Below are positions 21,966-61,939 of a DNA stretch of 64,000 nt, piece after piece. A program made the position numbers and the translations under genes. Each line of letters opens with the position of its first letter. Positions within the stretch are counted from its first letter, which is position 1. This DNA is from Trichuris trichiura. Its lineage: Eukaryota; Nematoda; Enoplea; Trichinellida; Trichuridae. The notes below the pieces were generated by a model, which was given only the letters and a program-made list of their open reading frames with translations, did not search any database and was not told the DNA's origin. Location: contig JBAJFE010000062.1 of assembly GCA_037903355.1 (NCBI GenBank), forward strand, positions 992,001 to 1,056,000. Reading direction: 5' to 3'.

Positions 21966-22037
21966 TTCCCGTGCCGGGAATCGAACCCGGGCCGTGTGGG
22001 TGAAAGCCACAAATCCTAGCCACTAGACCACACGGGA
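21966..22037 (-). tRNA. tRNA-Glu (anticodon UUC)
   Basis: The minus strand begins TCCCGTGTGGTCTAGTGGCT and ends with the pairing acceptor strand CACGGGA. The D-arm (GGTCTAGTGGCTAGGA), the anticodon stem TGTGG/CCACA around the loop CTTTCAC, and the T-arm CCGGGTTCGATTCCCGG all fold normally. The loop gives anticodon TTC, which reads GAA/GAG glutamate codons. The gene is 72 nt with its discriminator base and has no intron. CCA is not encoded, as expected for a eukaryote. Confidence 0.97.
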
Positions 22038-25584: not shown

Positions 25585-28500
25585 ATGAACGCGGTAATCG
25601 TCTTACCGCTTGCCTGTTTGGCAAGCATTGTTGCTGCACAATCGGTAATGAATTTTATTCTCATAAAACATTAATCCTTTATAGACATAGGGTTTCTGCA
25701 TAAAAGTTTTTTTCTTGTTATCAGAAGTTTAAAACATAGATTGCATCACATTCAAAGAATATCCGTGAATAAGGATATACTTTTACTTTTTCGTTCAAAA
25801 ATACCGTATACTTAAAAAGCATGACTATTTTTACCAATATGGCAACAAAGACCATTTTGTTTCATCCATTATTGGTAATTATTATGGGCAAAACCTATCG
25901 TGATAGCTTGAAAGCATAATAAATTTAAAAAATTTTGTATGAATATAAAACTACAGCAGTTTTTCTTCCAACGTTATAGCACCGCGAGTATAATAAATGC
26001 GTGCACAGCTATTCCATTATCAGGACTAACGCAAAGCATAAGATCTGAAAATGATAAGTTATGACTTAAACCCATCTCTTCTTCAGAAGCGCAATTATTT
26101 TATTGACACCTGAATCAACGAAAGCATGAAATGATCTGCTTATGTTACAGTAGCCTGTTCAAGAAAGTAACTTACGGTAGCCTGAAAAAGCGTTTAAAAC
26201 AAATAAATATAGCTTGAGAAAGATGAATTTTGAAAAAATTTGTTAAAGCACATAAGTTGATCATTGATGTATCGAAGAAAGGTATTTTGCATTGATAAGC
26301 CTCAGAAATAAAATAGTTTGCGAAAGGAATAAAAACTAGTCAAATTTTTGGAGATCCGAACAAGCGAAACAAATTACTAACACCTTCGCACAAAAGTAAG
26401 TGAAAGAAAAATTGACAAGAAAAAAATGAAAGTCTGCCTCTGCTAATCTAGTTGCACATGCTCATGATATATGTTCAGTTTGTAATCATGTTCTTTTTTA
26501 GGAACAACAGCTACTGCTAAGGATAGAGGTAAGAATCGTTTAACCGAACAGCAATCCGTGGCATAAGGCCAAGTTTGATTACTGAGCAACAAAGATACCA
26601 AAGTAGTATTTATATGTATATTCTAATTAAATGAAGAGTAATGAACATTGAAGAGTTCGTAGGATAATCGGTTACAATATTAAATGAAGAGTAATGAACA
26701 TTGAAGAGTTCGTAGGATAGTCGGTTATTATTATAGATTCAGCTGAAACAAATTTTTTACAAAGGCAACCAAGAATTAATCAAGTTAATTAAAAGCCTTA
26801 AAGATGAGGAACTATGCTACGCAGCCAAAAAAGGTCTTGTGCTCATCTCGTGAGTGACATTTATTCACACGTCTTCCCTAGTTTGCTAAAAGCTGAAAAG
26901 CTGAACATATGCAATCAGAACTGCTTAGCGCGTGAAGATAAGCATATTACGCCCGTTTGCTTATAGGCAATCTTGCAACCAACTAATGCTGACGTTCAGA
27001 CCAAAAATGCGCTGTTTGAACGGATTAATAAGGCAGAGAAAGTGTGCAAGGAAAACAAGTGCAAACAATTACGAGAGCAATTGAAAAAAGATAATCCGAT
27101 CGAAAAGTTCAGTAAATTAATGAAGGAATATGATGAATGCATGGACGAATGCAGAGTGGTAAGGCGAATAAATTATTATGCTCTTCACGTATCCTAATAC
27201 TGGAAAAAGTTGGTACTGTATAAAACTATAGTCTTCAATGTTCCTTGGAGGACAAGAAAGATCCCAAGCGCCTTCAGGTGGTCAAACATCGTTTTAACCT
27301 AATGAAAAACAATGCAATTTCACATTTCATTTCAAGGGGTGAGAACAGAACCAAGAAATCCCTCTTTCTTAATATTTCCGTTGGGAATAAATGGTCATCT
27401 AAAGAAGAATCCCAAGAATTCAGGAGCATTTTAAGCAGTTTCGCCATGAAAGACGACGCCTAACATTAAGCCTGGAAGCAGAGTAATTTATGCACAGTTA
27501 AGCTCATCTATGACAAGAGCATTAACAGCAAAGCTCAGTATAAGGCAAATAACTAAAGGCAATGCAAAATGACAATTTCACAAACCCCTTAACGCACAAA
27601 TGTTTAGCAAAAATGCACCTAAAGCAAGTACAAATATTCTGATTTGCAGAAAGAGCAACGTTCATTCGACATGCTCAAAGAAATCGAAAAGAAAAGTGAT
27701 TATTGGAAGAATTTCAACGAAGTGAAAAAAGGAATGACAGTCAAGGATGCTCTAATCTACTGGAAAGAAATTCGAGGCGAATTTAAACTGCTTGAAGAGG
27801 CAAGTATTTCAGACATGAGATCTGCTAATAAGTTGGAAAAGCAAAATTTACATTTCAAAATATTACTCTCCTGAAAATACTTTAATTCAATCAACCGAAC
27901 GTACGTAAGGCTGCCACACTAAAGGCATTAGACAAAGGGTTAGCTTCAGGAAGTTTTCAGCTTGTGAATTTTAATTTCTCACCCTTTTCAACGCGCAGTG
28001 ATTCTCATTTTTTTAGGATCAGCTGCAATTGGAAAAAATCCAGGTAACCCAGATTTACTTGAATTTCTGTCAACAGTCTGCAGAACGAAACTAACATCCA
28101 GACAGTTAGTAACAGAGAATTGAATGTATTTGTATATTTACCGTATCGAAAAGCAAAGCTCTTTTACGCTCAGAAGTTCAAAGACGCTGGATGACCTACC
28201 TCAGTTCTTTTTACGCAGCAAGATGAACCAGTTCGCTTAATCATGTTTTGATAATAAGGCACTTTACTCACGGACTAATATAAATTATACCATTAATTTT
28301 TCACATAACTCTTATTCACTTTTCTTACTTGCTTTATGGAACCATGAAAAGCTGGGCTAGGTTAGCAATCACTAAATGACGAGGTAGACATGCATAAGAC
28401 GCTTATCTGCTTACAGCGCATCTTGAAACCCACTGACGCAGACCACAATATGCGAGATGAGCTCCGCAAACGCATTCATAAAGCAGAAAGAGTCTGCAAA

Positions 28501-31500
28501 GAAGGTAAATGCAAGGAACTACAAAAAAAACTGGTGGCAGGAACTAACCCCGACGCGTTTATTGACTTGATGAAAGAGCACGATAAATGCATGGAAGAAT
28601 GCAGAGCAGTAAGTCCAATTTTTTGACAAGCCGCTTATTTTCGGGCGTAATCTTGCGTTGAGAAAAATTCATAGAAAACTTAAGCTTAAGAAGTAGAGGA
28701 GGTAAACTTATCAGGGATTATCACACCACAAGAGCCCTAGAAAATGAAATTGTATTAATACGCACGGAGACCCAAGAAGAACGCAGGTCATGTAAGCATA
28801 AAAGCTTTGATTTTCAGACAGAGAAACGATCGTTCAGTCTGCTCAGCGAGATTGACAAGAAAGCAGATTACTGGAAGAACTTCAATGAGGTGAAAAGTGA
28901 AATGTCACTCGAGGATGCTCTAGTGTATTGGACAGAAATTCAAGACGAATTTAAACTGCTGCAAGAGGTAAGCATGATTTATAAGGAATCAAAGTTCAAA
29001 CAGCTAAAATTACATTTTGAAAAGAGCTACCGCACGGGAAAGTATAGTAAAAAGATAAACAGAAATTCATTGACGGCCGTCCTTTTAAAGCATAACTTAC
29101 AGCCGTCTTTAAAACATCTTGAACAGACGTGCTACCCGTGCCCAATGATTAAATTATAACATACATGAATGTTCTTGAATAATTGATTCACATTGAATTT
29201 TTTTAGAATGAACAGGAGTTTGAAAGGATTGAGGTAAGACTCATGTACGCGATTATCTGCCGCTTAACTTACTTCGCTGACAATTGATTCTTACATGTTC
29301 GGTAGCCACAACCAGAACACTCTTTTTTAGTCATATATTTACTGATTAGGAGAAATGTTAGTAAATTAGTAATTGCTAGCTAATCTAGAGATCTTCGATA
29401 GGTGAGCTTCTTCAAGCAAAGTAGATTAATGAAACCAGGCGGAAACTTCATGAGAGAGAGCAAAACAATCTGATATTTTTGTTAAGAGCAGCAATAGTTG
29501 CATAACCATTGTTCTTGTGACCTTCTTATTATTACTTAATGGAACCACAGAATTCTAAAAGCATGCCATTAATGCATGCATTAAGCAGTAAGATGCCTAT
29601 AGAGTGGTCGTTTGTTTAAAGCGTATTCTGAAACCAAGCGAAGCGGATAAGAACATGCGTACCGAACTGGAAGATCAGATTAACAAGGGGAAGAAAAAGT
29701 GCAGCGAAGGACTATGCCCAGAGGATGTAATAAAAAAGGTAAGTCGGTATCTCAACAAAGAATTTACCATTTCGCCTAACAAGGGGTGCAGAAAATGCTG
29801 GACGCAAAATACAGCTGTAGTCTTTTAGAAAGCACGGTTTTCGTAATGCCATACTATTGTATGTTTTCATAACTATGATATTTAAAGAATTCTCCATTGT
29901 AGAATAATAGCTTATTAAAAAAATAAACCATAATCTTGCGGGACTCAAGCGATCCTATGATTAGCAGAATCAAATTAAATTTGAGATAATACTTATCATC
30001 GTTTCTGCAGGTATTATTATGTTTTAAGCAAGAAGCAGGGTGCATACTAAGACGAAGGTCGGTTAGTTTAGCTATTGGGAATAGTTAAAAAGAGGTTATA
30101 CAACTTATCGAAGGGGTAGTCGTTCTTAATCTATTCATCGTTCAGCATTGAGGCCGTTTCAGACCAGTCGTCATTTCCCTCCTTGTAATTAAAAAGAAAA
30201 ACCGGCAAAGTTTTGAACATCTTTTCAAATTAATAGACATTTTACAGAGACACCGCTTCGGCTTGCACACCCAGCTACAGTATATATAAACACAGCTGGA
30301 GGAAAGTTCATGCTCAGTTGGAATGCAGCGGGAAGTAAAATAAGAAATTAAGTCATGCAACAACGAATGTACCAGCATGAGTTTGTAAAGGACAAAATAC
30401 TCTTTCAATCTCATATCACCGTCAGCTGCGAATCTATTATACTAGTGGGAACACTGCGACGTTAGCAGAGCTATGCTATTATGTTAATCCTGCAGCAGTT
30501 GAGCTGCGAGCAAAGCATGTATAAAGCTTTCAACTTCAGGAGAAATGGGCACAAGCTGTTCTAGCGGAAATTGAAAAGAAAAGTGACTTCTGGCAAAACA
30601 TGAAGGAAGTGAGAGAGTTAATGTCAACTCTGGATGCCCTAGTGTATTGGACGGAAATTAGAGACGAATTTATAGAGCTGGAAAAAGTAAGCAGGCTTTA
30701 TAAAACATCGATATTGAAGCCATTTACGTATTTGCAATTTAAAAACAAATTAATTTGCTTAAGAGTGTTTTATTCGTCATCAGAATATGTAAAGCCTTTT
30801 TTACGAAAAGCAACTGCCGGTGTTTAGCATTACAGTATTTAATTTTTCATAATTCGAACGTAAGGGTAACTCACTTTCTAACACCCTCGCTTTTTCACAT
30901 TACTCACTTTTTACTAGTGAATCATTAGCATAAGCTCACTAGGAATTAAGGCATCCTTAAAAGGCGGAGGCTACCTGCTGAACTGAATTGTTTTAGCAAG
31001 AAAAGAAATACGAAGATGCCATGGTAAGTCGACTTGAAGCGATCGTTAACCGATATGCTAGAAGCGAATCGGTCTCCACCTGTGATAGTTTTCAACGCAA
31101 CGTTTAAGGCGAGATTGAGACTGACAAAAGAAGAAATTGAGCAAAAAGAAGAGCTGGACGCTAAAATCCGAGAACAAGACAGAATTTGCAAAACTGGTGA
31201 ATGCGCTGCTTTTCGAAAAGCAATACTTGGAGCACAAAAAGCGCAAGATCAAGTTTCTGCAGCTGATAGCTTCTTCAAATGTATGAAAGAGTGCAAATCG
31301 GTGAGGAAGCTACACCTACTATATCTGTGACTTTTCATTTCATGGCTGGTCAGCTCATTGAGAAATTGTAAATGGGCCCGCCAAAGAAAAGTTGGGGTAA
31401 AAATGTTATAATGTAATGGTTCAACATACTTAACAATATAAGCGTTCATAACAATAATTTTTAATTTGAGGCCACTGGAGCACTCTCACTCATTTAGGTA

Positions 31501-34099
31501 GTTGACCAAGATGCCGAGAAATTGGAGAAACTGCGCGAGAGAGAAGATTATTACAAAAACATGGAAGAAGTCAAAGAACAAGTGTCCGTCATTGCTGCAG
31601 TCCAGTACTATGACGAGATTAAGTTAGACATCGAGGCTGCAAAGGTAACGGAATAATGGCTGTTCTGTCTCACTCATGCCTTCTGCATGACCTGCCTATG
31701 CTTAAAACGATTTCAATTTGCACTTCTCATCGTATTTCGCACTGCATGGCTTGACCACTGGTCAAGGATATTTGCAAATTGACAAAACATTTCACAAACT
31801 AGCGGATAGGCTTCTTTTCATAAAAGAATAGAACACAACGTACGCTGATAAATCGTAACGGTAAAAAACCATCTCGTTATCTTGTCAGCGATGGCAGATT
31901 ATGACTTATAAAACGGTCAGGGATTATGAAGTTTCGCAGATGGTTAATAATAAGTTAACCAGTTAATCATAATAACTTCTTAGCAGCAAAAATTAGCATG
32001 TCAGAAATATTCAGGAATACCATCCACAGCATATATTTAAAAAACGTAAAATTGAAGTCTTAACCGTTTTGCGCCCTACCGTTTGAGGAATGCAGGTTCT
32101 TTTCCGGCACTCATGCGGCCATTCTGTTCAACCCTCACTGGAGAGCTTGCCGGTCATCCTGTTTAGTTCTAAACTAAACTTAAACAAAAATATTTGGTCT
32201 ATTTTTAGCGGTAGGCTTGGAGAAGGTTGGCCGGCAAAGTTACAGTATGACGGCGGCGGAAAGTATAACTGAGAGCTGAACTGAACAGCTCATTTACTCT
32301 ATCATTCAGAAAGCAAAAAAACATTGCAAATCCCTTGATGTCGTCTAAAGAATGAAACCTAACGGAAATATTTAGTCCAAATGATCCTAAAAAAACAGTA
32401 ACAAAGAAAGTTATGCCGGACATTTAACATCTGGTCAAGAACTTTTCGCAGAAATCATGTTCTGTCAAGGATGAGAGATGAGAAGCGAAGAAGTTCAGTA
32501 AAATCACCAAATGATGGCACCAACTAAATTTTAAAAAATTGCAGAATAACTAACATACGTACGCCATGAATGGTTAAAAAAAGTCATTCATTCGACTGCT
32601 GCCATTTGTCATTTCTAGGCTTTGCTGGATGATCAACAAGAATTAGCTTTAAGGCAAGAACTGGATGCGGTCGATAGAGATGCGTCCACGCATTGCTTGC
32701 TAAAAGAATGCGCGTCAACTCAACCAACTAGAAATTCCTCAACGTCAAAGCCTGAAACTCGTACGGAATTCAAAGCATGCGTGCACCAGTGTAAGAAGGT
32801 AGGACAGCTAAGCTAATAATATCAAGTTTGTATATACCACTACTAGTACGTACTCTCTGCTAGTTTCACATCATTAGAAAAACTGTCTTTATCTAAGCAG
32901 CTAAATGTTGGGCAATGCTTTCTCATGCTCAAAGCTGTAAGATACGAATACTATTCATTTCTTTGAGGGTCAATTAAACTTCGCAGCAAAGCCGCAATTT
33001 TATCAGCGCTAACTCTAAAGGAAAGGTATTGGATACAGCTCAGTCTGACTGGCGCCTTTGTCTTTTGAAGAAAAAAAATGAATTCATGGCTGCCTAAACA
33101 TTTCCACATCAAAATATTAATAATCACAAGCATTACCCGCAAATTTGTATTAACACATTACACCTAGTTTTGCTAATACAACATCAATAGTTGTTTTCGC
33201 TGCTTCACGACAATGGTTTGTTTTTAAGGATGAAAAGGAATTTGAAAGAATCGAGGTAAGTTGCAATTTTTCTCTCTTAATACTTGGCAAAGCAAAGCTG
33301 TCGCTGGATATGACTGAGCGTAATAATCCAACAGTTCGCTTTTCAAGAAAGCATTGACGCTCACGAAAGAAGAATTGGAGTTGAAAAAGAGATTGGAGAA
33401 CAAAGTCGCAGAAGCGTCCATAAAGTGCCAGAAAACAAAATGCGCCGACCAGAAAAAGCAAATAAAAGATTTAGGATTTAAACAACTTGATTTTAAAAAA
33501 ACTGATGCCTACTTCAAATGTTTGGACATCTGCAAGGAGGTAAGATATTTTGTTGCTTAAGACAAAACTAGTTTATGGAAACGTCTAACGTTTTCCATCC
33601 GCTCAAGTTGCCAAGCTATCGGCATTGTTTACTGGCTGCAACGCATGTTACGACATTAGCGTTGTTTACGTGGAAGCAGTAATTCGACACTTCAAAATTC
33701 GTTTCATAAAACCTAGGGCTAATATTATCAATATAAAATTGCCCAAAAATGTAAAAAGGCTGTGAACCTTGTGTTACATAAAAACTTTAACAATTCATCA
33801 CTTTAGTTCCCCACATAATTCACTCTAGTCAGGAGAACAGTACATGAAAGTCGCTTTACCACTCTTTTGCATAAAAAAATTAGAATTTAAATAGGTTCAT
33901 CGCATGATTCCGCGAAGGTTTCAGAGTTGAAAGAACAAACGCAGTACCATTTTAGAGTGTAAAAGAACTACAAGACAAGATTGACCAACTGCATAGCAGA
34001 CAGCAATACTGGATTAATTTGCATTCGATCAAAGACGAGATGTCGCTGCAGCACGCACTGATCTATTGGGTGGAAATTAAAAACGACGTCGTTCTTTGA
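25585..34099 (+). CDS. Modular secreted protein, 17 exons, unrecognised family
   Basis: I do not recognise the family. Exons: 25585-25644, 26502-26528, 26967-27158, 27650-27799, 28017-28043, 28417-28608, 28818-28967, 29207-29233, 29622-29738, 30540-30686, 30997-31023, 31109-31300, 31498-31644, 32619-32798, 33229-33255, 33348-33539, 33956-34099; 665 residues, every intron in phase 0. Exon 1 is a 20-residue signal peptide (MNAVIVLPLACLASIVAAQS). Then come repeats of three exon types. Micro-exons of 27 nt have a pattern like DEKEFERIE. Module A (usually 64 codons) has Cys-x4-Cys and, about 25 residues later, Cys-x3-Cys in charged, helix-prone sequence (for example YDECMDEC). Module B (about 50 codons) has a DYWKN...DAL.YW.EI pattern. 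The order is micro-A-B, four full units, then A alone, then micro-A-B. The third A (29622-29738) lacks its second Cys pair. The intron after the first B has a GC donor. A shorter paralogue lies at 57949-61939. Likely exported; function unknown. Confidence 0.85.
26627..26730. repeat. Two-copy tandem duplication, 53-bp period
   Basis: The segment from 26627 is repeated starting at 26680 with only a few differences. It lies in the intron between the first micro-exon and the first A module of the secreted-protein gene. Confidence 0.85.
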
Positions 34100-35809: not shown

Positions 35810-38800
35810 TCAACATTTCTCAAGTATTGCACACCAATTCCCCTGTTCGTAATAGCTTTTAAGCAGCCTACAGGATGTCAAACTTCTACACAACGTTTCC
35901 AGTTCCCCATCCGCAAAGACGTGATAATAACGAAGGACGGGTTTTTCGCTTTCGTCGCAATGTGCCTTGCCACTCTTTTTGGCCGACTTCCAAGGAACCA
36001 ACAAGTCTGCAGCTTCAAAGGGACGCCGATTTTTATGCACAATAAATGGAAGTTCCTCGTCAGCCGAACTTTCTTCTGGTAGTTGTTCAAAGCGTTTGGA
36101 TTTTAAGTATTTCGAGTCCTCGTTGTTTCGAGTTTGCTCCGCCGCCCAAACGTATACGAGAGCTTGCCCACCAGGACGGAGCACGCGTATCAATTCGTTT
36201 AAAGCTTGGATTCGACGCTCCTGAAAAAGGACTACCGTAACGGATAAAATTGTCTCGTCAGAAACTAACTGTTGCGGACAAATGATGAATGACTGCAATG
36301 GATAAAACGGCGTCGAATGTCTCGTCTCGAAATGGAGTACTGCAGCAGTCCACTTGAAGAACCTGGTAGCCTTTACGACGACATATTTTGCATAGCGCCA
36401 AGGAACGATCGCAACCAATTTTGATCGTGTTGGCTCGGTTGGACAAATACTTCCCGTTGCCACAACCAACGTCCAGTAATAAGCAGTTTTCCTTCAGACC
36501 GTTTAAGAATTGCAAAACTCCAGGCCACAAGGAATAACGGGTTCGGTCAAACGAATCAGCGATTTGGTCGTAAACCTGCAAAGCATTTGGACTCTTAAGC
36601 CTGGCGTATCAAAGTGGGATTCTTAGGTTCACACCCCGAGGCACTAAAAGTGGCAAAAGTTACGCATACCTGGTACACGTACTTTTGCTCTACACTGCTA
36701 GTAGTTGAAGTAGACGTGGAGACTTGGCAACCTTTAACCGGGTATGCTGCTTTTTCTTGAGTGTCTGAAAAGATTTCGACTGCTGCGCCGCTAGGAGATG
36801 GGTTTAAAATGAAAATGTTCTAAAGCAATAACTAGAATAAGCTACAACTAAATCAATCGCTTTTTCATGGACATACAAATTATTCTAACCGATATTTTTA
36901 GGGTTACATTTTGACAGCTCAAAAAATTAGCAGATGTTTTGAATTTTTAAAAATTTCAAGGACAATGAAAGCTTAACAACCTGAAACATAGCGAAACGTG
37001 AAAGAAAGCCGCGGAGATCTTCTCAGAAGCAGCCCGTTTGGTAGGGCGTCGAATTTTCTGGGCGCTATTCTGCCAACGAAAAAAGAAACGCGAATAGCGA
37101 AACGTTACAATAAAACAACAGCAAACCCATGCTTCCATTCGTAACGCGCCTGTCCAGTCATAATGAGCAAACTTCGCCTTGGAAGCAGCAGCGAATGGTG
37201 GCAGTTGGTCAATGGTTTCACAAAGTCCATCACAATCTTAAATTTTAAAAAATTAATCAAACTAGGGGGGAGGAAAGAAACTCTTAAGGTATTCTTCATA
37301 AAAGTGACATCTAGCCGATTCAGTAAGTTTAGGGATGATCCAAAGGGAATAACATAGGAAAGTTGCTATCACGCGTAGTTGATCGAAATAGTATACTCGC
37401 TTTGATTTTTGCGAATCGCCGCTTATACAGATTGGCTAAGCAGTGACCCACGATTGGTGAATATGCTAAAAGAGTTGAACAGAACAAAGGGAACGCTACT
37501 GCGAACGCTAGCAACACTGTAATGTCAAAATATGGGTTTTGCTCAAGAACCGCTTTAGCATATTAAACTTGGAAGCTAGAAGCAAAGAAACAATACATAT
37601 GCCCATTAATGGCACTGTTCCGCACCCACTTAAATATTTGGCTCGTCAGTTTCACATTCCTCAGCAGGGTATGCTTCTTACAGGTATGCTGCACCAATGG
37701 GCAACGCAATAGAATGTACACTTACGTCGCCGTTAAGACTCAGCGAAACAATCTCTTTTCCGATCAAAGGAGAACTGTCGAAGTGCAGTGGTATGCCTTC
37801 AAAGGATCGAAAATTAAAGAAAGAAAGAGTAGTTCGAAATTTTGCCGCTTACCTTGGCCAGGTTCATAAAAGTTTACAGTTAACTGATTAGGTAGCTGCT
37901 CGATCAGGTGAAGTGACCGCATTCGTTTCGTTAGTTCAAGACACAGCGGAGGGATAGGCTGCTCTGCAGGCTTACTGATGTCAGGCTCATTCGTAGAGTA
38001 CAAGAAATTGTAGCCAAAGTGAAGAACACTACGTTTTCCAAGGCAGCAGTAGTCTGTAACGTCACTATCACTTAGTCTTCAAAAAGGATCATGCGTTTCT
38101 ACTTGCTGAATAGGATTCAACCAGCTTAGACAAATCTCGCTCCTGCGAATCAGTGATAAAGTCACTTAGCAGAAACAGACCTTCTGGACAAGAAACTTCC
38201 GCCGAATGGATTCGTTGCTCAGGAACTGAAAAGGCGAATTCTCTTTGGGGATAACACCACTATAAAATTTAGATAAAGAAAAGCGACATGCTAAATTTTC
38301 CATAGGCAGCATGCAACATGCCTTCGCTTAAACTAGAGGGAAGACAAAGCGCGACTGCAAAAGGCGCCATCGACAAGGGGAAGAAATACTAACCTTTGAG
38401 AATGCAACCTATTAATATAACTGTGAAACAGAACCAGACCATTACAAATAAGGGGCGACCCGAAATTTATTTGACATTATCAAATATTTTTTGAATTTGA
38501 AAAATGCAAATTATTTAAATTCAAATCGCGTTCTACACTATGCTATACTCAAGTTGTCAAAGAAAAAGTGTAATTTGTAAAGCCTTCACCAAAGCCGGAG
38601 ATAAGAAAAGAATAATCAAGAATTGGAAATGCACCATTTTCTACGAAGGCGAAGTAAAGAGGAACATTCTGCCCTTGCCAAGTAGGCTTCCGACCGTGCC
38701 ACGCAGACTTGAGCTTCTGGGCATCTTCGATCCGATCAAAGGAAATAAAAGAGTACGGCTTGTTGAAGTACATGCTCACAATGAACGAGGCGGGATGGGC

Positions 38801-39202: not shown

Positions 39203-42200
39203 CTATTCGCCTTCTCTGGAGCGCTTGACCGAGGGCTCATCGTCCGAATCTGACAAAGCCAAGTCTATGTGCAACGGATCCATTTCCAACGGTTCCTCAC
39301 GCGACGTAGAAGGTAGCTGATCGTCTAAAGATGAGATTATGCCGCCTGGATTGAAAAAGCATAAACCAAAGAGCCTACCGCCTATAGGGCTCCTGTTTCC
39401 GTTCGTTTCGCCTTCGCTGTCGCTTAGCAATAAGTCAAGCTGCAATTTGGCATCCTCCTTTACTGGCTGAACTTGACTGACCGAACGGCTGTCTGCAGCT
39501 TCGCCTGTTCTTTCCGCCGCTTCATCACGAACTAAGGAGCCTAAGTTAGGTATAAATGCAACGACATTTTTCAGTTTATATTGGTCACCTCATTACACTA
39601 ACGTAATATTCAAAAATTACTTTCGCCAATGGTAAAGCAGTAAAGAAGGGTAACAGAAGATGGAACGAAGCTACACTTCATTATTGTTGTTGCTTTTAAG
39701 GCAACCAAAACTTCGGGTAAATACTTTCTTGAAATACTTCAGCAAAGATTTTAAAAATTATCAATGGCTTCACTTATTGGCGCAATGTAGGTCATGTATA
39801 ACAGACATTGGAAACTACAACTAATACGCCCTGGATACGCACCGTAGGAGCTGCTGACACCGGTTGCCAACGACTCGCTTTCAGCCGCATCGAGAACTTT
39901 TTGCCTGGATAAGTTTAGCGCGTTTTCTAGTTCGACCAATTGGTCCTTGTTCTGAAAAGAAAAACATTCAAGCACAGCTACCATTTAAGGCACCTCCATC
40001 AAACTGTGCTACCAGTATCTTATGATAAAAAAACCAACGCATGCAAACTCACCTCTTCTATTAATCTACAGGCACAATCGAAGATTTCCTTCGCCTTCGT
40101 GGTGAACATGGAAGCTGGTCCATTGAAGAGCTCGCTATTTTTGTATATTTGCTCAACATCTCTTAGGAAGTCAGCAAGAAAATGGTACTGATGACGTTGA
40201 GCTTTCTGCTCCATCGTTCCGAGATCCATGGGGAATTTGACCTTCTCATAATAAGACTTTACTTTTCTTCCGTCCACCGGCTGATAAAAGGGAAAAGTTT
40301 TTGGCAAGCATTTGCACTGCTGAATTATGTTAGACAGCAAGTAGCTGAACGCTACTTGGTCGTTGTCATCAAGCAGCGGATTTATTGCTTTTTCAAGCTT
40401 CATAAGGCGGCGCTCCTTCTCCGCCACCTTTCTGCTAGCGCATAGGAAAACCTGACGAGCAGCTTGCGTAATTTCGCTTTGGTCGCCATTGTACAAACGG
40501 CTGTTGTCCAAAATTTGGCGTATATCTCTTAGGAACTCTTCGCGAGTAACATACTGATTTTGGGAGACGTTCATACGGACCTTCTGCAGATCTATCGGTC
40601 GGTTGATCACCTTGTAATAATCGGGAACAAGCTTTTTGCTCACTGGCTGCAAAAAGAGGCCAGCTTCAGGCAAGGCGCGAACTTCATTCAAAACGCCTTC
40701 CAAAATGGCGGACATTGAAATTTTAGGATCGGTCCGTCTTCTGTGTACACCCTGCTTGGGAACGCCGTCAAAATAATCCATATAAGAGCCAACATCTCTT
40801 TGCCTCGAGTTCGAATCGCTTAAGGTCGCTTCGTCCAACTCCTCCTCTTCCTCCGAGTCGTCAAAGGAGTACACACTGCCTTTACTGTTGCCTTTTGGAG
40901 TCCACTCGTCTTCAAGTCGAGCGTCGCCGGATTGCCGACGTATGATGATTTTGTTGGCAAAGCCTTTCGCTTTTGATCGCATTGCTTTTCTCAACTTTTC
41001 GGCATGCTCCACAACCAGCTTGCTCAACTTGACCTTTGTTCCTTCTACCGAAACTAAGTTTTTCTCTGTCTTTGGCATCTTTAGTTCTTCGTCCATTTCG
41101 ACGTCATCCGGTACGGCTAGCGACTGCGCGTAGTATTTCACCTTACCGTAGAGGGGACAATTCTTGTTCGTCTTCATGTGACCTTTGGCGCCGCAAGCGC
41201 TGCACCGCATTTTCAGCAGCGAAGGTTTGGGGGGCGGAGGAGGCTTACTGGACTTTGTCGGTTTCGCCTTTGAACCCAATGGTATACCCAACTTCGCTTT
41301 CATCTCGTTGCGTCTTATGCGCCTCAACTGATCTTGCAAGCGCCGCTTTTCGCGACGACGCTCTTCGCGATACTGCTCGTCCATATGAGCAAAATGTTTG
41401 ATGAACGTTTCGTCTTTGGTCGTTCGAATTTTTACGTACGCCTCAATCAGCTGCGGCTTCGTTACGTACTCGACAGTAATGTGTTCCCGGCCGTCGGAAC
41501 TACGGTAGCTTCGAGTTATTTTCAACTTACGCCCTTCTAAGGAAGTTGTCGAATCTCGAGCGGCAATTTGCGATGATGAATCAGACGTTTTCTTCAGCTC
41601 GCCAGGCAGCATAAAACTTTCGCCTCTGAGCAGCTTTTGCAATTCCTCGCGTTCCTTCTCCTCATTTGAATAGCTCTGAAATTAATAAGGACAATTTTAG
41701 CAAAAATAGCAACGCACGTAAGCATACAGAACATTTGATTAACTTGCAAACTAAATGCTAATGTAACAACAGAAAGGTTTACGCTGTTAACTGTTACGCG
41801 TTTACATGAACAGTACATCAAGTTTTTTGGAATAAACAATGTTTGACGAATCAGTGGAATGGATGATTCTTTACCGTAGCTGTTCAGGTAAAAGAATCAT
41901 TCTGAAACCAAGTTTAGGTATCACCACTATTGCTTCACCTTTTTTACTGCTCATAAATTACTAGTATGCGTTGTGTAAGATATTTTGAGTGTATCACTAA
42001 AGCTGGATAGTTGCACACAGCTTAGATTATTACTTGATTACACTCTTACTGACTGAAAGCAGAGGATATGTACATGTTAAAAATTCTTATACTGAAATAT
42101 TGTTGTCGATAGAATTCTAGCATTCAAAAAATGTTCTCTTCTATTAACAGACATTTTAAGAAATGAAATATGAGTACCGTTAGGCAGCACATGCAAAATT

Positions 42201-49884: not shown

Positions 49885-52119
49885 TCAGTTCGCCAATACA
49901 ATGCGTTTTGCCAACGCACTTTCTACTTGTTGCCCTTTTGTTTCCTCTTCTTGTTTGTTGGCGGGATTATCGAGGTAGGCGCTTTTCGCTTGCGCGAACT
50001 TGCAGCGCTTCCAACAGACTGACTTTGGATAGCTTCTAAAAATTTCTACTAAATTTTGCCGGCCCAAATTAGATATACTTGAATTCGCTTCTTCAGATAA
50101 AATGCTTTGCTTTTTGCGCAGATTAGAAATTGGTCGCTTTTTTTTCTTAGCAACGGCAGCTTTGCTGGATTCAGATTCAGGCTGGTCGACTGAAAAGCTC
50201 CAAATGTCATTGCGAATAGACCGACGAAACTTTACCTGAATTGGTCGCCGGTTTCGGATTGGACAGCTTTTTCAATTTTGCAACAAAAAAACCCGCCATA
50301 TTGTGCTTGTGCGGGTAGAAACGTCGACACTCTTTCAAACTTGGATGGAAACGGCCGCTTCGAAAACTAAAGCGGGCAAAAGAACACTGAGAGAAAGTTG
50401 GCGAAAAAACAATACTTACCGCGTGAAACCTGGTAGACCAAAAGTCAAACCGGTGGGTACTACCTTAACTGGACGTCTTTGCAAAGCGTAGTCTATCACT
50501 GCCTCGTTCTCTTCAACAAAGACTGAACAGGTCGAATAGACCAAATAACCGCCAGTCTTTGAATTCGCGTTAACTTGGTCAATTGCATTTAAGAGCAACT
50601 GCTTTTGCAGAAGGGAGCATCTGCGAATGTCACTTTCTGTCTATTTGAACGAAAAAAAGCAGGTAGGTAAGCGGTACAGTACACCACCATACCTTGGAAA
50701 TCTTTACAGTAGGATCTCTTGAAATCACTCCAGACCCGCTGCAAGGTGCATCCAGCAAAACTCGGTCAAACTTTATCTAGAAGACGATTATATTATTCTC
50801 ATAAGTAGGGCACAAAGAGAAAATGTCAAAGTTACTTTATTGAACTTCCTGCCGTCGATACTAGTAACTATTGCATTCTTCACGTTAAGACGGTGTATGT
50901 TGGCCGCTATTGACTTACATCTGGCTTGGTTGATATCGTTAGCCACCAGGAAGCCGGAATTTTTCATTAAAGCAGCAATGTAACTTGCTTTTCCGCCAGG
51001 GGCAGCGCACATGTCTAGGATTTTTTCCTCTTCCTTGGGATCCAACGCGAGAACAGGTAAGAAACTGCTAGCTTCTTGGATCATGTAATGGCCAGCCAAG
51101 TATTCGTTGGTGGCGCCTAAAGTTCCATCGCACTCACAACATATATAAAAATAAGTCTTAACAGCTAAAACTTTAAGTAGTGCAAACTTAATAAGTTGAA
51201 TTGTTAGCAAAGAAGTTCTAAAAAGGGATGCGCACGTATTAATCTATATAACGGTAGCGAAAGCCAACTAATATACCAATTGGGACAGGCGATCCGTAAA
51301 CTACAAGACCAACCTTTGACCAGTTGCCAACTGGACGCAAGTTGACGCCCCGATTAATCAAAGCCTTGAAAATTGATTTCTGTTAAATGCATTTAGAAGA
51401 AAACTGTGCAAGTCAACTTTTGCCAGATCTGTCCGCCTTGTCTTCAAGGTATTGCAACGAATAACGACAGGACGTTCAACCTCATTGGCTTGCAAAAATT
51501 CCAGCAACTATAATGATCAAGCCTTAGATATTATGAAGAATGAACTCAAGACTATTTCGGCAAACGGATGCGTGTAGTACATGTTGCTTACCTCTTCAAT
51601 GGAGAATAAATTGATGAATCGCTCCATGATAAAGTCGTTATAGCCATAATAAAGGCACAAGTCTTTCCGTAATTCTTCGAGATACTCTTTACGGCTTTTT
51701 CTGCAGAAAAGATGTCCAATAAAGTATTCGGGCTGCAGGAAACTATACCTTTTCGGTGTTTGGCTGGACAATGACTTCAACGATCCAACAGTCGCTTTGA
51801 TCCTCTCGTAAACGTCGTCAATGTTGAGCGCATTGCCTTCCTTCCCGGATCCATCAGCAGTTTCAGACTCGTTCATGTTTAGATTAATTTCACCTTCGCC
51901 ATCATCAGTGCCGTCAGAAAATGTTTCCTCATTAAAATCTTCGTCTTCCGAACCAAAATCATCCACTTCGTCGTCGTCGTCAACAGGTACGGCTGCCGCG
52001 AGCTCAACCTTTCCATTGACGCTTTTAGCCGCTTTAAACGCCTCCTCAGACTTTTTCCCGCCAAATACTTCGACGACATTGCTAAAATGAACTCTTGCTT
52101 TTTGCTTCGACTTATCCAT
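49885..52119 (-). CDS. NOP2: NOP2/NSUN1, 28S-type rRNA cytosine-5 methyltransferase
   Basis: Nine exons in frame give 564 residues: 51749-52119, 51592-51700, 51418-51507, 51277-51379, 50836-51116, 50693-50776, 50420-50640, 50236-50366, 49885-50189. The N-terminus is acidic ([17 protein letters not shown]). Then come the PUA-adjacent block ([19 protein letters not shown]), the SAM site ([14 protein letters not shown]), the general Cys motif [11 protein letters not shown], the catalytic [12 protein letters not shown] and [16 protein letters not shown]. This order is diagnostic of NOP2. The enzyme methylates a conserved cytosine of large-subunit rRNA in the nucleolus. The start ATG is chosen because the frame closes with no earlier ATG. 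Intron 1 (48 nt) is a multiple of three and open, so it could be misread as coding. The C-terminal tail is lysine-rich and not conserved. Confidence 0.95.
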
Positions 52120-53315: not shown

Positions 53316-54122
53316 TCAGCTATGTTTAGTGCTTTCCCGCAATACTACGGTTGTCCTTTTCAGTTTTTCGATTGGTACTATTGACCTCCGGTCCGAGCCA
53401 CGTTGAAGGATGCTGCGCACATCGGAACAGAAACGGAGGCAGTCAAGAAATGGAAGCAAATCTAGCAGAGCCGTATCGCTTCTATTGCCGGTCCATTCTT
53501 TGATGGGGACAGCATTTTGTGGATAACACAGATAGGCGGTAGGCGAATTGTCAATTATGCATATCCTGCGAAGGTCATCGCAGATAATTCTTAAATCCTT
53601 CGTCAAGGATACGTTTAGAGGCAGGCAGTGCTTTCTGTACAGTCGTATGTTCAAAATTCCGCGACTTCCGTCCAGCATATTGATAATTGGATCTGCGTAC
53701 TCCTCCATGGCCGCAGTATAAATCACTAAAAGGTACCATTTGCTAACCATATCTAAGAAAGCGTCAACGTATGGTCTTTTGTAAACCTCCGTTTTAACTT
53801 TTCGATTCTTTGCACATATGTGAAAGACCAGGTCTGCTTCGTAACCTTTTAATTGCGATTCTTCTGGTAAAATATCGTAGCATGAATGAACAAGTGTTTC
53901 GTCCAGGTCCAACACTAGAATCTTTGTTTGTACATGCTGCAGTTGTGCAGATAGTCCTGTGCCGACGGGTATATCTTTGTAGGTGAACTGGTATCTTTTT
54001 TTCATTCGTTCAAAGAACGAATCGATTGTAGATACCAGCCATTCCTTCGTTCGTATGCTGTTCCTGCCCGGTACAGCGCGAAAATTGAATACATTTTCCG
54101 TACACCCATTTGTAGGTGTCAT
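53316..54122 (-). CDS. CTDNEP1/Dullard-like HAD phosphatase, intronless
   Basis: A single open frame of 268 residues (human CTDNEP1 244). The FCP1/SCP phosphatase core starts with LVLDLDETLVHS, where Asp72 and Asp74 are the nucleophile and acid. It continues with YTAAMEEYADPIINMLDGSRG, the IRLYRKHC block, ICIIDNSPTAY and SDTALLDLLPFLDCLRF, all in family order. The substrate in other animals is lipin at the nuclear envelope and ER. An in-frame stop lies just upstream, and the first ATG downstream is used. Two oddities stand out. The neighbouring conserved genes average an intron every 150-250 coding bases, while this has none. The N-terminal membrane helix of CTDNEP1 is not evident. A retroposed paralogue is plausible. 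Confidence 0.88.
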   Translation of the reverse strand: MTPTNGCTENVFNFRAVPGRNSIRTKEWLVSTIDSFFERMKKRYQFTYKDIPVGTGLSAQLQHVQTKILVLDLDETLVHSCYDILPEESQLKGYEADLVFHICAKNRKVKTEVYKRPYVDAFLDMVSKWYLLVIYTAAMEEYADPIINMLDGSRGILNIRLYRKHCLPLNVSLTKDLRIICDDLRRICIIDNSPTAYLCYPQNAVPIKEWTGNRSDTALLDLLPFLDCLRFCSDVRSILQRGSDRRSIVPIEKLKRTTVVLRESTKHS

Positions 54123-54708
54123 TGGTTGTGCATCCTTCAAATGCCATTATTTGTTGGCAACTGAACTTCTAGTCGAATATCTTTGCTTCTTTAGTTTAAA
54201 CCTTGCCTAAGAAAATGTGGTAGTTTAATGTCATTCCGTGGTGACCATACCCCGTTATGAGTTTCCGAACCGAATGTCCCTACTTTTTCTTCATTTTTTG
54301 ACTAGAGGGAGCAGAGCTTTATTTTTCTTGGAGAAGCCGTGCTTCCCGAAAAGACCTAAGCTTTACATAGTGATTTCGGCACTTTCCATACAATGTATTA
54401 TTGGAGAGCGTGCTTATTTACGCATCAATGTGTTCGAGTAGTAGAAGCATGAACTGAAGTCTTCGGGGTTTGTGTTAATCCACGTTCAGCTTACTTTTCT
54501 GCTGAGGGCAGATTGAAGAAAAGAATCGGAAGCTTTATGTGTGTACTTCCTAGACGGGTTAACGCGTACGGAAAATGTACTCATAATGCCATTACGAAAT
54601 GCTACACGTTTAAAACTCGCTTATGAGGTCGTATTACCGAAAGTGTAAGCATATCGAGGAACCTCTTCGGAAAATGTCCCCTTTTATCTTCTCTCAAACA
54701 TTATTCAA
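54123..54708. other. Upstream region of the CTDNEP1-like gene
   Basis: Presumed promoter of the minus-strand phosphatase. I see no other gene or repeat. Confidence 0.4.
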
Positions 54709-55547: not shown

Positions 55548-56355
55548 TTACTCCGATGTTAGGGTATTTATAGGCAGGGAGAGGGCGCCAGTCGGTATGG
55601 AACAACAACCCGTTTTACTGATAACAGATGTCCATATCGAGCTGATCTCCACCCGTTTGTCACGGTTAGTGGGGGCGTTGCTACCTATGCACAGGGACTC
55701 CTTTATTTTGCCTAAGGCGAAAATGGCTCTCGCGGCAAATGATCGACGGGTGCAGGTCACGTGAGCATTGAGAGGAATGCACAGCAACCGCGGAGGTGTT
55801 CTTCGCTTTTTCCATGGCTTGTAGAGGCGGAATTGTTCTAGGACGTCCCCGACGTGTTCTGTATATTCCGTTCAGTTCATCTTCAGCGGTCCGGTAACTG
55901 TTGAGCGCATGCATGCGTTCTTTAAATCTGTCAAATAGGGTATTGCCCGTTTCTCCTATGTAGGAGGCGTTGCAATCACAATTAATCACATAAACGACGC
56001 CAGGTCTCTGTTCGAATGGGACCTTGATCTTATCGTTCCGCACTAAGGAACGAAGGTTGGGGGAAGACTTGAAGAAAATGCGGAAGCTGTACTGGCGACC
56101 CAGACGTTGCAAGTGTTCCCCCAGGCCGACGTAGTAAGAAATGGTGAGAACTGGACGAGGATCCCTCTCATTATTTGAGGTGGTGTCGGTAGGGTTTAAC
56201 CTTCGCGCTATGGTGGAGGAGACGAAGGTTTTGGGGTAGCCATTTTTCTCCATCGTCGTCGCAATGTGGTGTAATTCAGAATTCAGGAATTCTGAATCAC
56301 AGATTGCGATGGCGCGGTCCACCATCCCTGTCACTATGCCCCTCTTTACTGACAT
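55548..56355 (-). pseudogene. Penelope-like GIY-YIG endonuclease domain, frameshifted
   Basis: The frame 56355-55681 contains VVYVINCDCNASYIGETGN and DRFKERM, the GIY-YIG signature with its conserved Arg. This is the C-terminal endonuclease of Penelope-like elements. The last part of the protein continues in another frame (55787-55548), with APTNRDKRVE matching the usual C-terminal tail of this family. The break near 55.78 kb is therefore a frameshift rather than a natural end. Confidence 0.9.
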
Positions 56356-57948: not shown

Positions 57949-60900
57949 CTAATGAAAGAGTTCTAAATTGTTTCTGATTTCGTCGAAGTACATCAACGCA
58001 TCAAGAACGGATAATGCGGTTCTGATCTCTTCCATTTTTCTTAAATAAGCTTCCTGCCTTCTCAAGTTTTCCAACCTTCTTTCTTTATGCGCCACCGCCT
58101 AGACAATAGAAAGAATTAGTCGTATATTGCCTGTATGCCAGTAATCAACGCACGTATGCAAATGACGAATTCTTTTTGAAAATGGGAACAGATCTGCGCA
58201 TTGTTTTCTTATCAAAACTTCGTTAAATCAATACCTTCAAGGTTTGAGAAGTTGTTTTACCAAGTTCACGCGTGCGATGAGGCAGTTGAGAAAATGGGCA
58301 TCCAATTACTTTCTGCTAGCTTTAGTTGTATTATCATTGAGCTGCTTTCTATCTGTTAATACCAACTTAGATTAGAGAAGTTAGATGTCTCGTCACTGGT
58401 CAATAGAAGCCTATGCCTCTATTTTAGGTTTAAGGATGCTTGCTCAATTCTGAGATTACGTTTTACAGCGAAAAAGCATTCATTATCGTTGAGTACATAA
58501 GCTTCTTTAGGTACTTATGCTACGTCATTGAGCCAACGAGGCATATGCAATAATCGCTGGATATACAGTACCTTTAGATTAACAGGTATGTCTTTTTATT
58601 TAGTTTGCCTACGGGTGGTAATACTATTTTGAAAGTGTTTTTCTATCAGTTGAAGCTGCAGTTGCCGTGACTTAAGCTATGCAATCTTGGGTGTTCTTTA
58701 CGGAAAGCTTATCTCTGTAATGATTTCACTAATTGTCAGCTGTAAAACCTTCTTTTTCTTACCTTTTTGCATCCCTTCATGCACTCAGTCACTTTATCCG
58801 AGAGTCGAATATGACCTGCAGACTTTCCACCTTCCACGAGTAAAATGTTTATGGGAACACACTTGACAGTTCTGCAAGTTTCGTCATGATGTCTAATTTG
58901 GCGGTCCAGGTTTGCCATTTTCCTTCTGTCACCTTCAGTCAATTGCAACGCTGCCTTTAAAGATGAACTTTAGTCCTTCGTCTTGTTGCAAGTTGTTCTC
59001 AACAACTTTCGAGCGTGCTTAACGCAAGTCGTTTAAGCTAGACTTACCTTGATAAGCTCGTACTTTGCTTCTTCCTAAAAAAGGCAGTTCAAGCAAGACG
59101 GTCAATGTAATGGTAGCATTTTATTTCTGCGCAAACCTTGAGCTAAGCTATTGCTTACAGTGTTATAATAAAGGTTGTTACAGTTCGACCTTCCAGCGGT
59201 GTGAAGTGAACTTGGCATTAAGTGTAGGAAATTGATTTTTGTCCCTTAATTCTGTCACTGAACGATATTCTCCTTTTAAGAACGTTTGCAATGGTTTTGA
59301 AATGGATTGTTTATTTGATTGCATGTTACTGGTTAACTTTCCGCGCTCGAAGAAGCGTACAAAAATGTTAAAAAAGGAAATAACCTTTTAACGAAGTGGT
59401 AAAACTTCTTTGTAAAGAAATGACGATTAGACGCTTGTGAGATAGGAGTCTTTTGGTTTTTATATTATATCATCGTTATTTGAGAAAATTATAAAGCAGA
59501 TAAACAGGGGCTGACGCCTATTTAGTTACTTTCTCCGAAAATTATTAATAATAAGTGCAACACCACCGATGTTTCATTTACGCTCTATCCTATCTATTTC
59601 TGTCACGAGCTCTCAGATTATAAACTGCAAGCTTTCCATTGCTGAAGTTAATTGCCGAAATCAGGCATACCTCATCCAAATTTTTAAAGTAGATCCTGAT
59701 TTGTCCCCAGTATTCTGCCGCATCGTTCGGAGACATTTCATCCCGTATTTCAGCCATATTTTTCCAGTAATCTTCCTTCCTTTCCAGTTCTTCCACCAAA
59801 TCGTACTCTTTTCTGACTACCTGAAAATTGTTTTACTTGAAAAGTTTTCTTTGGTTTCATTGCATCTCAAATTTGTTTGAACTTACGCGCTTTACGCGTT
59901 CTTGCTTAGTCCGTTCTGTTTCCGCGCAGTTTTCAATTCTTTTGATGCAAGGAAAAGAAACATGAGATATTTTGGCAATTTTTTTTGCTCCTTGTAGCGA
60001 AATGCCATATATTCAGTGTGAGGTAAAACTGGTTGGTTAGATATTCAGTAATTCTGACTCTTTGATTCCTAACATGTAAGCGTACAGGCAAGCGCGAATG
60101 TGCCTCTGCTTTTGGGTTCAAAGTGAATTCCACAATTGCACTTAACCTCCTAGATGCGGAAATCTTGGAATTGAATAATTTGAATTTCAAATTGTTCTTA
60201 TAACCTCAGCATCCAGTACTATACGACAATACTGGAAAAATTAAACGCATTGCCCATGCCGCAAAGTAGCCTGGTACATTTCCTAACAGCAAGCCATTGA
60301 AGGACAACGTTTTACTTTATGTCTTCTTGCTTTCACGGGGCTACTGTCAATTATTATCGTATAGTCAAGTTCATTTCAAGCGAAGGACTTTTGCCTAAGT
60401 AATTGCGAGAATAAGCGGACTGGTTTTAATTCGTCACGTTTTTAGTGTTTTCTAGCGTTAGAACATTGGTCTATTCCTTTGCCAACGGCGCAACAACGTG
60501 TTCTCAGAACTCTCGATGTTTATAGCCGTATGCTTAACAGTAGCATGTCTTTCTTGTTGGCGAACATTTCGTCCATTAACAGTTCTCTTGAGCGGTCACA
60601 ATCTTACAGAATATTATGCATGGGGGTGTAATGGGCTCGTGAAACACGTTCCCATCTTGAAGAATTCTATCTTCAAAAACTTTTACGCGTCTAAATAATC
60701 ACATGACTATCTATTATGTGATTTCTAATAACACAGCTGAAATCGAGGTTTTCAATGTTTTAGCCAGTTAGAAGAGTTTATGGTTGAGCTATGTTATTGT
60801 GAACGAAATTCCCGCTTGAGGAAAAAATGTTTCTTTTTATAATGTTTTCCATTCAGTCAAAACTTTCGAAGCTTATTTTCCCTTAGCAATGTACGAAGCA

Positions 60901-61939
60901 ATCTTACCATTCTACAGTCGTCCATACAGTCGTCGTATTTCTTCATCATTTCCTTGAATTCTTTGAATCCTCTTCCCACAACTAGCGGGTCTCGCAGATG
61001 CCTGCAAGTTTCTATGTTGCACACTGTTTCCACTTTGCCAATTCGATCGTATAATTCGTCCAGCATGTGTTGGTCGGCCCTAGATGGCTTCAGGATGCGC
61101 TGCAAGTAAGTCAGTGCGTCTGCTTCAAAAAGTAATATAAGCGATTTTAGCATATTTTTCGTGTCTTCCATTGTTTGGTTACATGCGTTTAAAAAATTCC
61201 CTCCTCACTGTCTTTCATTGCCAAATTCATTGTACAACGTAGGTCTTTGCGTGAAATGTTTACTAGAAACTGATTTTTGAGGCATTTATTTTTACTTCTA
61301 TTGCGCTGTCCCCTTAAATGGTAAGGAGCAAGCTTACCTGAATCCTTTCCATCTCTTGTAGGTCCTGAAACAGCTTCTAGTGAGCTTGATCTGTTTTACC
61401 ATAAAGGCGGGAAAGTAGCATAGCTTATGAACTTTGATTTACATTGAATCCTTCAAGTTTGCAGGGTAATTAAATTTTTTTTGATTTCCTTTTCCCGTTT
61501 AATCAACTTGCCTCGCCAGCATGTTTTTTCTGCGTGCAGTTGATGTTTAAGCAATAAAGCAGTGTGCTTTCCTTTGATAATAAGTATTCTCAAGTATTAT
61601 CATTTGAAAGCTCATACTTACCGTAGCTTCATTTGTGAGTGGGAGTCGTTCTATTCTTAAATGAGTGCGTTTGTATTTCTGCCGTTACATGTCTTTCGCT
61701 TTCATTTAGCGCTAGCGGAAAATAGTATAGGCTTTAACATGTTTTAATTAATGTCCTATTAGAAAGCCAATTACGGCCTTATGAAATATACCAAAGGCGA
61801 GGAGCTCTACTAGGTTAGGAGAGCGTTGCTTCCTCTCTAGCATAATTGCAACTTGGGAGTTGCAATCGAAGTTGCTCACCGTTTCTCTTATGAAGGCGTT
61901 CGTCAAGCACGCAAACGACAAGACGAGGATAACTTTCAT
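57949..61939 (-). CDS. Modular secreted protein, 7-exon paralogue, unrecognised family
   Basis: Exons: 61880-61939, 61338-61364, 60908-61099, 59671-59820, 59048-59074, 58763-58954, 57949-58098; 265 residues, all introns phase 0. Exon 1 is exactly 20 codons and encodes a signal peptide (MKVILVLSFACLTNAF). Two units of 27-nt micro-exon (such as DLQEMERIQ), A module and B module follow. Both A exons are 192 nt, with Cys-x4-Cys then Cys-x3-Cys (CNIETC and CMDDC; CRTVKC and CMKGC). The B modules carry EDYWKNMAEIRDEMSPNDA and a diverged terminal form that ends in the stop. The exon plan and sizes match the gene at 25585-34099 on the other strand. An ATTAAA lies right after the stop. Presumed secreted; function unknown. 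Confidence 0.85.

Follow-up and report, generated by a model that had tools for sequence, protein, structure and literature searches.

A Trichuris family of predicted secreted repeat proteins built from a three-exon, putatively helical unit

Gene 1 and its cluster

The DNA analyzed here (the window) is a 64,000-nucleotide stretch of the whipworm Trichuris trichiura, positions 992001 to 1056000 of contig JBAJFE010000062.1 (C26 below), and it carries, at window positions 25585 to 34099 of the forward strand, a predicted gene for a secreted modular protein that we refer to as gene 1. As modeled from the sequence, gene 1 has 17 exons and would encode a 665-residue precursor; there are one signal-peptide exon, five micro exons of 27 bp, six A exons, and five B exons (Table 1). 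The 20-residue signal-peptide exon is followed by a recurring order of micro (27 bp), A (about 192 bp), and B (about 150 bp) exons, which makes a repeat unit of about 123 residues. The A module is marked by a Cys-x4-Cys...Cys-x3-Cys signature, and the B module is rich in Trp and Tyr. All joins are in phase 0 and 17 of 17 exon lengths are multiples of three, so that exons could be gained or lost without breaking the reading frame. The splice sites are AG acceptors and GT donors, with a single GC donor at position 27800, after B1; GC donors (gcaagt) occur at two B exons of different genes, this one and B5 of gene 6 in the cluster described below. Inspection by eye also reveals a direct duplication of about 40 to 50 bp in the intron between m1 and A1 (window positions 26622 to 26730).

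All 17 exons listed in a first-pass annotation of this DNA were recovered with these splice sites and phase-0 joins. Its count of six A and five B modules was right, although not every copy is complete: A3 is half-length and A5 is a diverged orphan, which leaves gene 1 with five units plus an orphan A. What that annotation missed was the three-exon repeat unit, the gene cluster, and the single-unit relatives.

Gene 1 is the leftmost of six family genes on C26, which form a cluster of 127.8 kb with 2 to 8 units per gene. Profiles of the A and B modules, built from the gene 1 exons and iterated, were run over 178 kb (the window and the next 114 kb) and gave, at E < 0.01, 33 matches for A and 34 for B, all of them within positions 26,967 to 152,096; the best matches outside this interval had E values of 0.74 and 0.7. 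Among 6180 open reading frames (ORFs) of the reversed-sequence control, neither profile had a match below E 0.01 (best, 1.1 and 0.65). The scan for micro exons, which covered 27-bp sites with splice borders and used a matrix refined on its own hits, returned 37 sites with scores above 6 in 122 kb, 34 of them accepted as exons and 3 dropped, versus 2 in a 102-kb control. The first DNA pattern written for a B-like motif had no match anywhere. On these sequence statistics, the recurrence of the A and B modules is not due to chance.

The models of the six genes contain 110 tabulated exons and two more, m1 of gene 2 and B5 of gene 6, the latter being left out of the substitution-rate and motif counts given below. 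For genes 2 to 6, phase-0 joins, absence of stops, and a 27-bp micro-exon length were conditions of the modeling, and these regularities are not independent evidence. Scanning for signal-peptide exons with lengths of 36 to 102 bp allowed, we found a 60-bp candidate upstream of every cluster gene; genes 2 and 5 each had a second candidate, which was dropped. A8 of gene 4 came out over-long from the automatic choice of splice sites and was kept unchanged.

Table 1. Predicted family genes and exons; cluster coordinates equal window coordinates up to 64000, and C27 coordinates are those of that contig
Feature	Coordinates	Strand	Remarks
Gene 1 signal-peptide exon	25585..25644	+	60 bp, MNAVIVLPLACLASIVAAQS; 60-bp exon of the same type heads all six cluster models
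Gene 1 micro exon m1	26502..26528	+	EQQLLLRIE
Gene 1 A1, type I	26967..27158	+	CX4C...CX3C; profile E 1e-23
Gene 1 B1	27650..27799	+	GC donor (gcaagt); profile E 4.6e-23; P0001 identity 50/50
Gene 1 micro exon m2	28017..28043	+	DQLQLEKIQ
Gene 1 A2, type I	28417..28608	+	Profile match
Gene 1 B2	28818..28967	+	Profile match
Gene 1 micro exon m3	29207..29233	+	NEQEFERIE; 9/9 in P0001 and P0005
Gene 1 A3	29622..29738	+	Half-length A, first Cys pair only; P0001 identity 37/39, there fused directly to B3
Gene 1 B3	30540..30686	+	Profile match
Gene 1 micro exon m4	30997..31023	+	QEKKYEDAM
Gene 1 A4, type II	31109..31300	+	Profile match, tree
Gene 1 B4, type II	31498..31644	+	Profile match
Gene 1 A5	32619..32798	+	Diverged orphan A without its own B; P0001 identity 57/60
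Gene 1 micro exon m5	33229..33255	+	DEKEFERIE
Gene 1 A6, type II, long branch	33348..33539	+	Acceptor 33348 preferred to 33351; P0001 identity 62/64
Gene 1 B5	33956..34099	+	Includes stop TGA 34097-34099
Gene 2	57.9-61.9 kb	-	Two units, within window
Gene 2 signal-peptide exon	61880..61939	-	MKVILVLSFACLTNAFIRET; one of two candidates
Gene 2 micro exon m1	61338..61364	-	DLQEMERIQ; one of four candidates, picked by likeness
Gene 2 A1, type I	60908..61099	-	Profile match
Gene 2 B1	59671..59820	-	Profile match
Gene 2 micro exon m2	59048..59074	-	EEAKYELIK; micro-exon scan
Gene 2 A2, type II	58763..58954	-	Profile match
Gene 2 B2	57952..58098	-	Profile match; stop codon next
Gene 3	72.5-80.8 kb	-	Four units
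Gene 4	84.7-105.8 kb	-	Eight units
Gene 5	109.7-128.1 kb	-	Eight units
Gene 6	132.3-153.4 kb	-	Eight units
C27 gene, signal-peptide exon	278361-278420
C27 gene, micro exon	278585-278611		27 bp
C27 gene, A	278860-279063		CX4C, CX3C
C27 gene, B	281173-281313		Then stop

Several other features share the window, all on the reverse strand. Just downstream of gene 2, positions 55684 to 57469 hold a reverse transcriptase ORF (PF00078) followed by an ORF with no Pfam match; the second ORF looks, by eye, like a GIY-YIG endonuclease, and the pair is perhaps a Penelope-like element. The ORF at 40023 to 41681, which we take to be TAF1-like, contains two bromodomain stretches together with a CCHC zinc knuckle. 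Neighbors of housekeeping type are an RsmB/F-type ribosomal RNA methyltransferase (50791 to 51243), a NIF-type phosphatase (53319 to 54146), and a methyltransferase domain (36261 to 36608), and there is a transfer RNA gene (Rfam RF00005) at positions 21966 to 22037.

Relatives in the genome and in other whipworms

Searches of the whole genome with single exons placed all 23 A matches and 21 of 22 B matches on C26; the remaining B match, on C19 (C19:1245709-1245804, E 0.316), is weak. A two-unit Trichuris muris protein used as the query matched 50 times; C26 accounts for 48 of these matches, and the other two, both weak, are on C27. The latter contig has, at C27:278361-281316, a complete gene for a one-unit protein, with signal-peptide, micro, A, and B exons and a stop codon (Table 1); as a gene prediction it is certain. 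T. muris P0011 matches its A and B exons with E values of 3e-21 and 3e-11 (58% identity over 99%), and P0011 and Trichuris suis P0012 are its orthologues. The same order is seen on the reverse strand at C49:123534-125746, where a signal peptide, a 48-bp exon, an A exon with CX4C and CX3C (tblastn E 0.005; local profile E 5e-7), a B exon read by eye, and a stop follow one another; this locus is likely a more distant one-unit member of the family. The predicted complement of the genome is thus eight genes (one of them likely) with 37 units, eight of which have a short A.

Three protein searches, which detect a relative only if it has short exact words in common with the query and of which two scored only the best-sharing candidates, matched proteins of Trichuris alone, in line with the early expectation that related families would be confined to close species. 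No Trichinella protein was among the matches, although distant relatives, for example in Trichinella, could escape such a word-based search; bacterial and archaeal contigs yielded no relative, as expected. Two of the searches matched T. trichiura P0001, T. suis P0002 to P0005, and T. muris P0006 to P0008, and the third added the single-unit proteins T. muris P0011 and T. suis P0010, P0012, and P0014. The single-unit search gave six hits in total, including P0009 and P0013, which by eye are pieces of array proteins. Known entries of the family (TTRE_0000134701, M513_13694, D918_02817, M514_06427, A0A5S6QH39, and A0A5S6PZS5) are annotated as uncharacterized or hypothetical, and the literature listings searched, which covered few subscription papers and no supplements, contained no description of the family or its accessions.

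In T. suis, gene models from other groups have the exons in the order of ours, signal peptide and micro exons included. P0001 is 96% identical to gene 1 and holds 12 of its 17 exons (A1 by the last 13 residues only), without the signal peptide and four micro exons. T. suis P0002 has all 13 exons of gene 3 in order, its signal peptide and all four micro exons among them, and carries additional sequence between m1 and A1. Every A and B exon of gene 5 (16 of 16), the two short A exons among them, recurs in the same order in residues 361 to 1293 of T. suis P0004, the part that was searched, with B4 matching over 21 residues only; for some of the gene 5 micro exons, 9 residues each, the match in P0004 was to a sister copy, and the claim of common order is made for the A and B exons. 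The T. muris proteins P0006 and P0007 each read as a signal peptide and two units. All of these models are predictions; those of T. suis provide independent support for the exon order.

Domain, predicted structure, and history

The first-pass annotation could tie neither module to a known domain, and our searches led to the same outcome. Pfam gave no match at its cut-off for 10 A and B exons of gene 1 and nine full proteins, the nearest match being PF07272 in P0002 (21.9 bits versus a cut-off of 25); NCBIfam gave none at cut-off for four proteins, PDB sequences none below E 0.04, and Foldseek, run on the models, nothing at E <= 0.001. AlphaFold2 models, from alignments of 7 and 11 sequences, are confident and all-helical both for the T. 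muris two-unit protein (mean predicted local distance difference test [pLDDT] score 87.7; predicted template modeling [pTM] score 0.72) and for a single unit (mean pLDDT 85.2; pTM 0.63). The single-unit model places Cys56 and Cys61 in one helix and Cys91 and Cys95 in the following one, with a register that would suit 56-95 and 61-91 pairs, which fits the earlier suggestion that the A module is a helical hairpin. In the two-unit model, the helix of residues 124 to 155 runs continuously across the B-m-A junction.

Such a hairpin, clamped twice, could belong to a protease inhibitor in the style of the plant alpha-hairpinins, with many units for many targets. The CX4C...CX3C pattern is present in 22 of the 28 full A exons, with 19 to 27 residues between the Cys pairs, and would suit this idea together with the predicted hairpin. 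However, the spacing differs from the CX3C...CX3C of the alpha-hairpinins, the units are much longer, the spacer is 25 residues in 14 of the 22 exons, and short A exons without the hairpin exist, two of which are nevertheless kept in T. suis P0004. We consider an inhibitor highly improbable.

The alternative that interests us most is a lipid carrier like the nematode polyprotein antigens (NPA), whose helical units lie in tandem with basic cleavage sites between them: the units studied here would be cut apart and would transport retinol or fatty acids, either within the worm or outside it. The unit of about 123 residues compares with 123 positions in the PF16469 profile, the units form tandem arrays, the prediction is all-helical, and 31 of 34 B exons have a Trp. 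PMC12238268 reports NPA and FAR proteins as absent from clade I worms, which makes a stand-in thinkable, but that same source assigns the role to p43/dorylipophorin. PF16469 is not among the Pfam matches (E <= 1 for gene 1 exons; E <= 10 for P0001 to P0004, P0006, P0007, and P0010 to P0012); a whole-genome search with this profile had no match, with its positive controls also silent, and is uninformative. Genes 1 and 2 contain no R-x-[KR]-R motif, and none lies at any B-m junction in the six models, so there is no sign there of furin-type cleavage into units; the model also makes the junction a single helix rather than an exposed loop. With these points against it, a lipid carrier seems decidedly unlikely to us.

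The tree of 32 units, rooted at the midpoint only, separates type I (21 units) from type II (11 units) with support of 99/98. Of the 35 cluster units it includes 26, to which four units from T. muris, the C27 unit, and P0011 were added; the nine cluster units left out are the eight with a short A and unit 5 of gene 6, and the tree also omits the orphan A5, C49, and every T. suis unit. Type II comprises the last units of arrays, units 4 and 5 of gene 1 (the latter on a long branch), and the single-unit proteins, whereas type I units are internal; the T. muris arrays P0006 and P0007 are of the form I-II. The simplest history suggested by these sequences would start from a one-unit type II-like protein, pass through a two-unit I-II protein, and continue with more type I units and whole-gene copies, and this multiplication of type I units and genes would predate the split of T. 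suis and T. trichiura.

Among genes 4 to 6, overall ratios of nonsynonymous to synonymous substitution rates (dN/dS) are 0.40, 0.54, and 0.45. Values below 1 indicate that the genes are held as coding sequence, with some units drifting or diversifying: the B exons of units 4 and 7 have dN/dS of 0.91 to 1.29 in each of the three comparisons, two of which also put A7 near 1. The short A exons, the orphan A5, the two GC donors, and the fact that stop-free exons of genes 2 to 6 were built into the modeling could be taken to mean a decaying or misassembled repeat region rather than a working gene family. Set against the overall dN/dS, the same exon order in the independently assembled T. suis, and the close match of P0001 to gene 1, this explanation is scarcely credible.

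Proposed role and comparison with known systems

We propose, as an evenly balanced possibility, that the 665-residue product is a string of helical micro-A-B units forming a stiff, disulfide-clamped, multi-site rod that is released toward the host. The signal peptide would direct the protein into the secretory path; the second helix of B, modeled as running unbroken through the next micro exon, would hold neighboring units at a fixed angle; and the Cys residues of most A modules would pair between the two helices of the hairpin. The founder would have been a secreted protein of one or two units that grew by duplication of the m-A-B triplet between phase-0 introns. Long arrays would offer many similar sites with faces free to diverge, which would suit multivalent binding at the mucosal niche of the worm. 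Only tentatively do we extend this to a domain, and perhaps a helical fold, that would be new and would have arisen within the whipworm lineage. Its ancestor, a stand-alone secreted protein of about 14 kDa still present in each of the three Trichuris species seen, would have given rise to rods of up to eight units by exon-triplet duplication and thus to an unnamed host-facing class.

Several observations speak against the proposed rod and its release. The gene models, secretion, host release, binding, and disulfides are all predicted; signal peptides were assigned by eye and by a hydrophobicity count rather than with a dedicated predictor; and a signal peptide fits release to the host, body cavity, cuticle, or egg equally. 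The alignments behind the AlphaFold2 models are shallow. The clamp is evidently dispensable in places: 8 of 36 A exons are short (those of units 1 and 3 in the eight-unit genes 4 to 6 encode only 22 to 23 residues, without Cys pairs), and 6 of the 28 full A exons, A2 and A7 of genes 4 to 6, are without one or two cysteines. In A7 of these genes the second and fourth Cys are lost together and the first and third kept, a pattern that does not suit the 1-4/2-3 register of the model and that 1-3/2-4 pairing would fit better. Six R-x-[KR]-R motifs occur in genes 3 to 6; one of them spans m6-A6 of gene 4, and the other five lie within exons. The near-neutral dN/dS of B4 and B7 may reflect relaxation rather than host-driven change. 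Finally, the B exon of the C49 locus, read by eye only, has no profile match, and the micro exon there is 48 bp instead of 27. Separately, we noticed by eye the same joint loss of the second and fourth Cys in unit 3 of T. suis P0002.

The protein could also be secreted for internal use and not act on the host, as a structural or matrix component of the cuticle, eggshell, pseudocoelom, or core of the stichocyte granules. Charged helical rods of constant pitch fit a scaffold, and the signal peptide shows entry into the secretory path only. Two considerations set against a matrix role are each weak either way: the number of units varies by species (one and two in T. muris, where longer arrays are possible, and an eight-unit order in T. 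suis P0004), and some B exons have dN/dS near 1. A matrix protein appears to us rather unlikely.

This predicted secreted family, which has no known domain, supplies concrete, testable candidates for host-interface proteins and antigens, with orthologues in the mouse model T. muris; to our knowledge, most whipworm secreted proteins have no known role. Human whipworm infections are put at 289.6 million in PMC8308736. The family also illustrates how duplication of a three-exon unit in phase 0 can build up an array protein, and one genome still contains stages with one, two, four, and eight units.

Among known systems, dorylipophorin p43/p47 (Tm-DLP-1) of Trichuris is likewise secreted, limited to clade I, internally repeated, and disulfide-rich, but it has a mixed alpha/beta structure (6QIX) and a His-rich tail, according to PMC12238268. 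6QIX is not among the PDB-sequence matches of profiles A2 and A5 (E <= 10; three unrelated hits each); the p43 fold is not among the Foldseek/VIA matches listed either, which is no argument against a shared fold. Trichinella SML-2/MCD-1, a secreted stichosome protein, has tandem four-Cys domains that are tenuously cystatin-like and is found as 11- to 14-kDa pieces in secretions (PMC2680962). It resembles our family in its tandem four-Cys domains and in coming from a relative of Trichuris, and it differs in the cystatin-like character and the small secreted pieces, a distinction drawn by description only.

Other comparisons concern architecture. The NPA proteins weighed above share tandem helical units of similar length and differ in lacking a profile match here, in the furin-like sites that genes 1 and 2 lack, and in the continuous junction helix predicted for our units. 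Spectrin is made of three-helix bundles joined by a helix common to neighbors, a joint that the junction-spanning helix of our two-unit model may resemble; the micro-A-B proteins, in contrast, are predicted to be secreted, and their units of about 123 residues are longer, with two Cys pairs and more helices per unit. The spectrin family was not among the Pfam matches listed, and there was no significant fold match. The alpha-hairpinins are helical hairpins with a CX3C...CX3C spacing, unlike the CX4C...CX3C of most A exons. Schistosome micro-exon genes encode secreted proteins in tiny phase-0 exons and consist mostly of micro exons, whereas only 5 of the 17 exons of gene 1 are micro exons, each belonging to a larger unit. 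Secreted repeat proteins restricted to one lineage are well known from parasites; the unusual feature here is a three-exon unit that occurs as a one-, two-, four-, and eight-unit series in a single genome, with no recognizable relative outside the genus.

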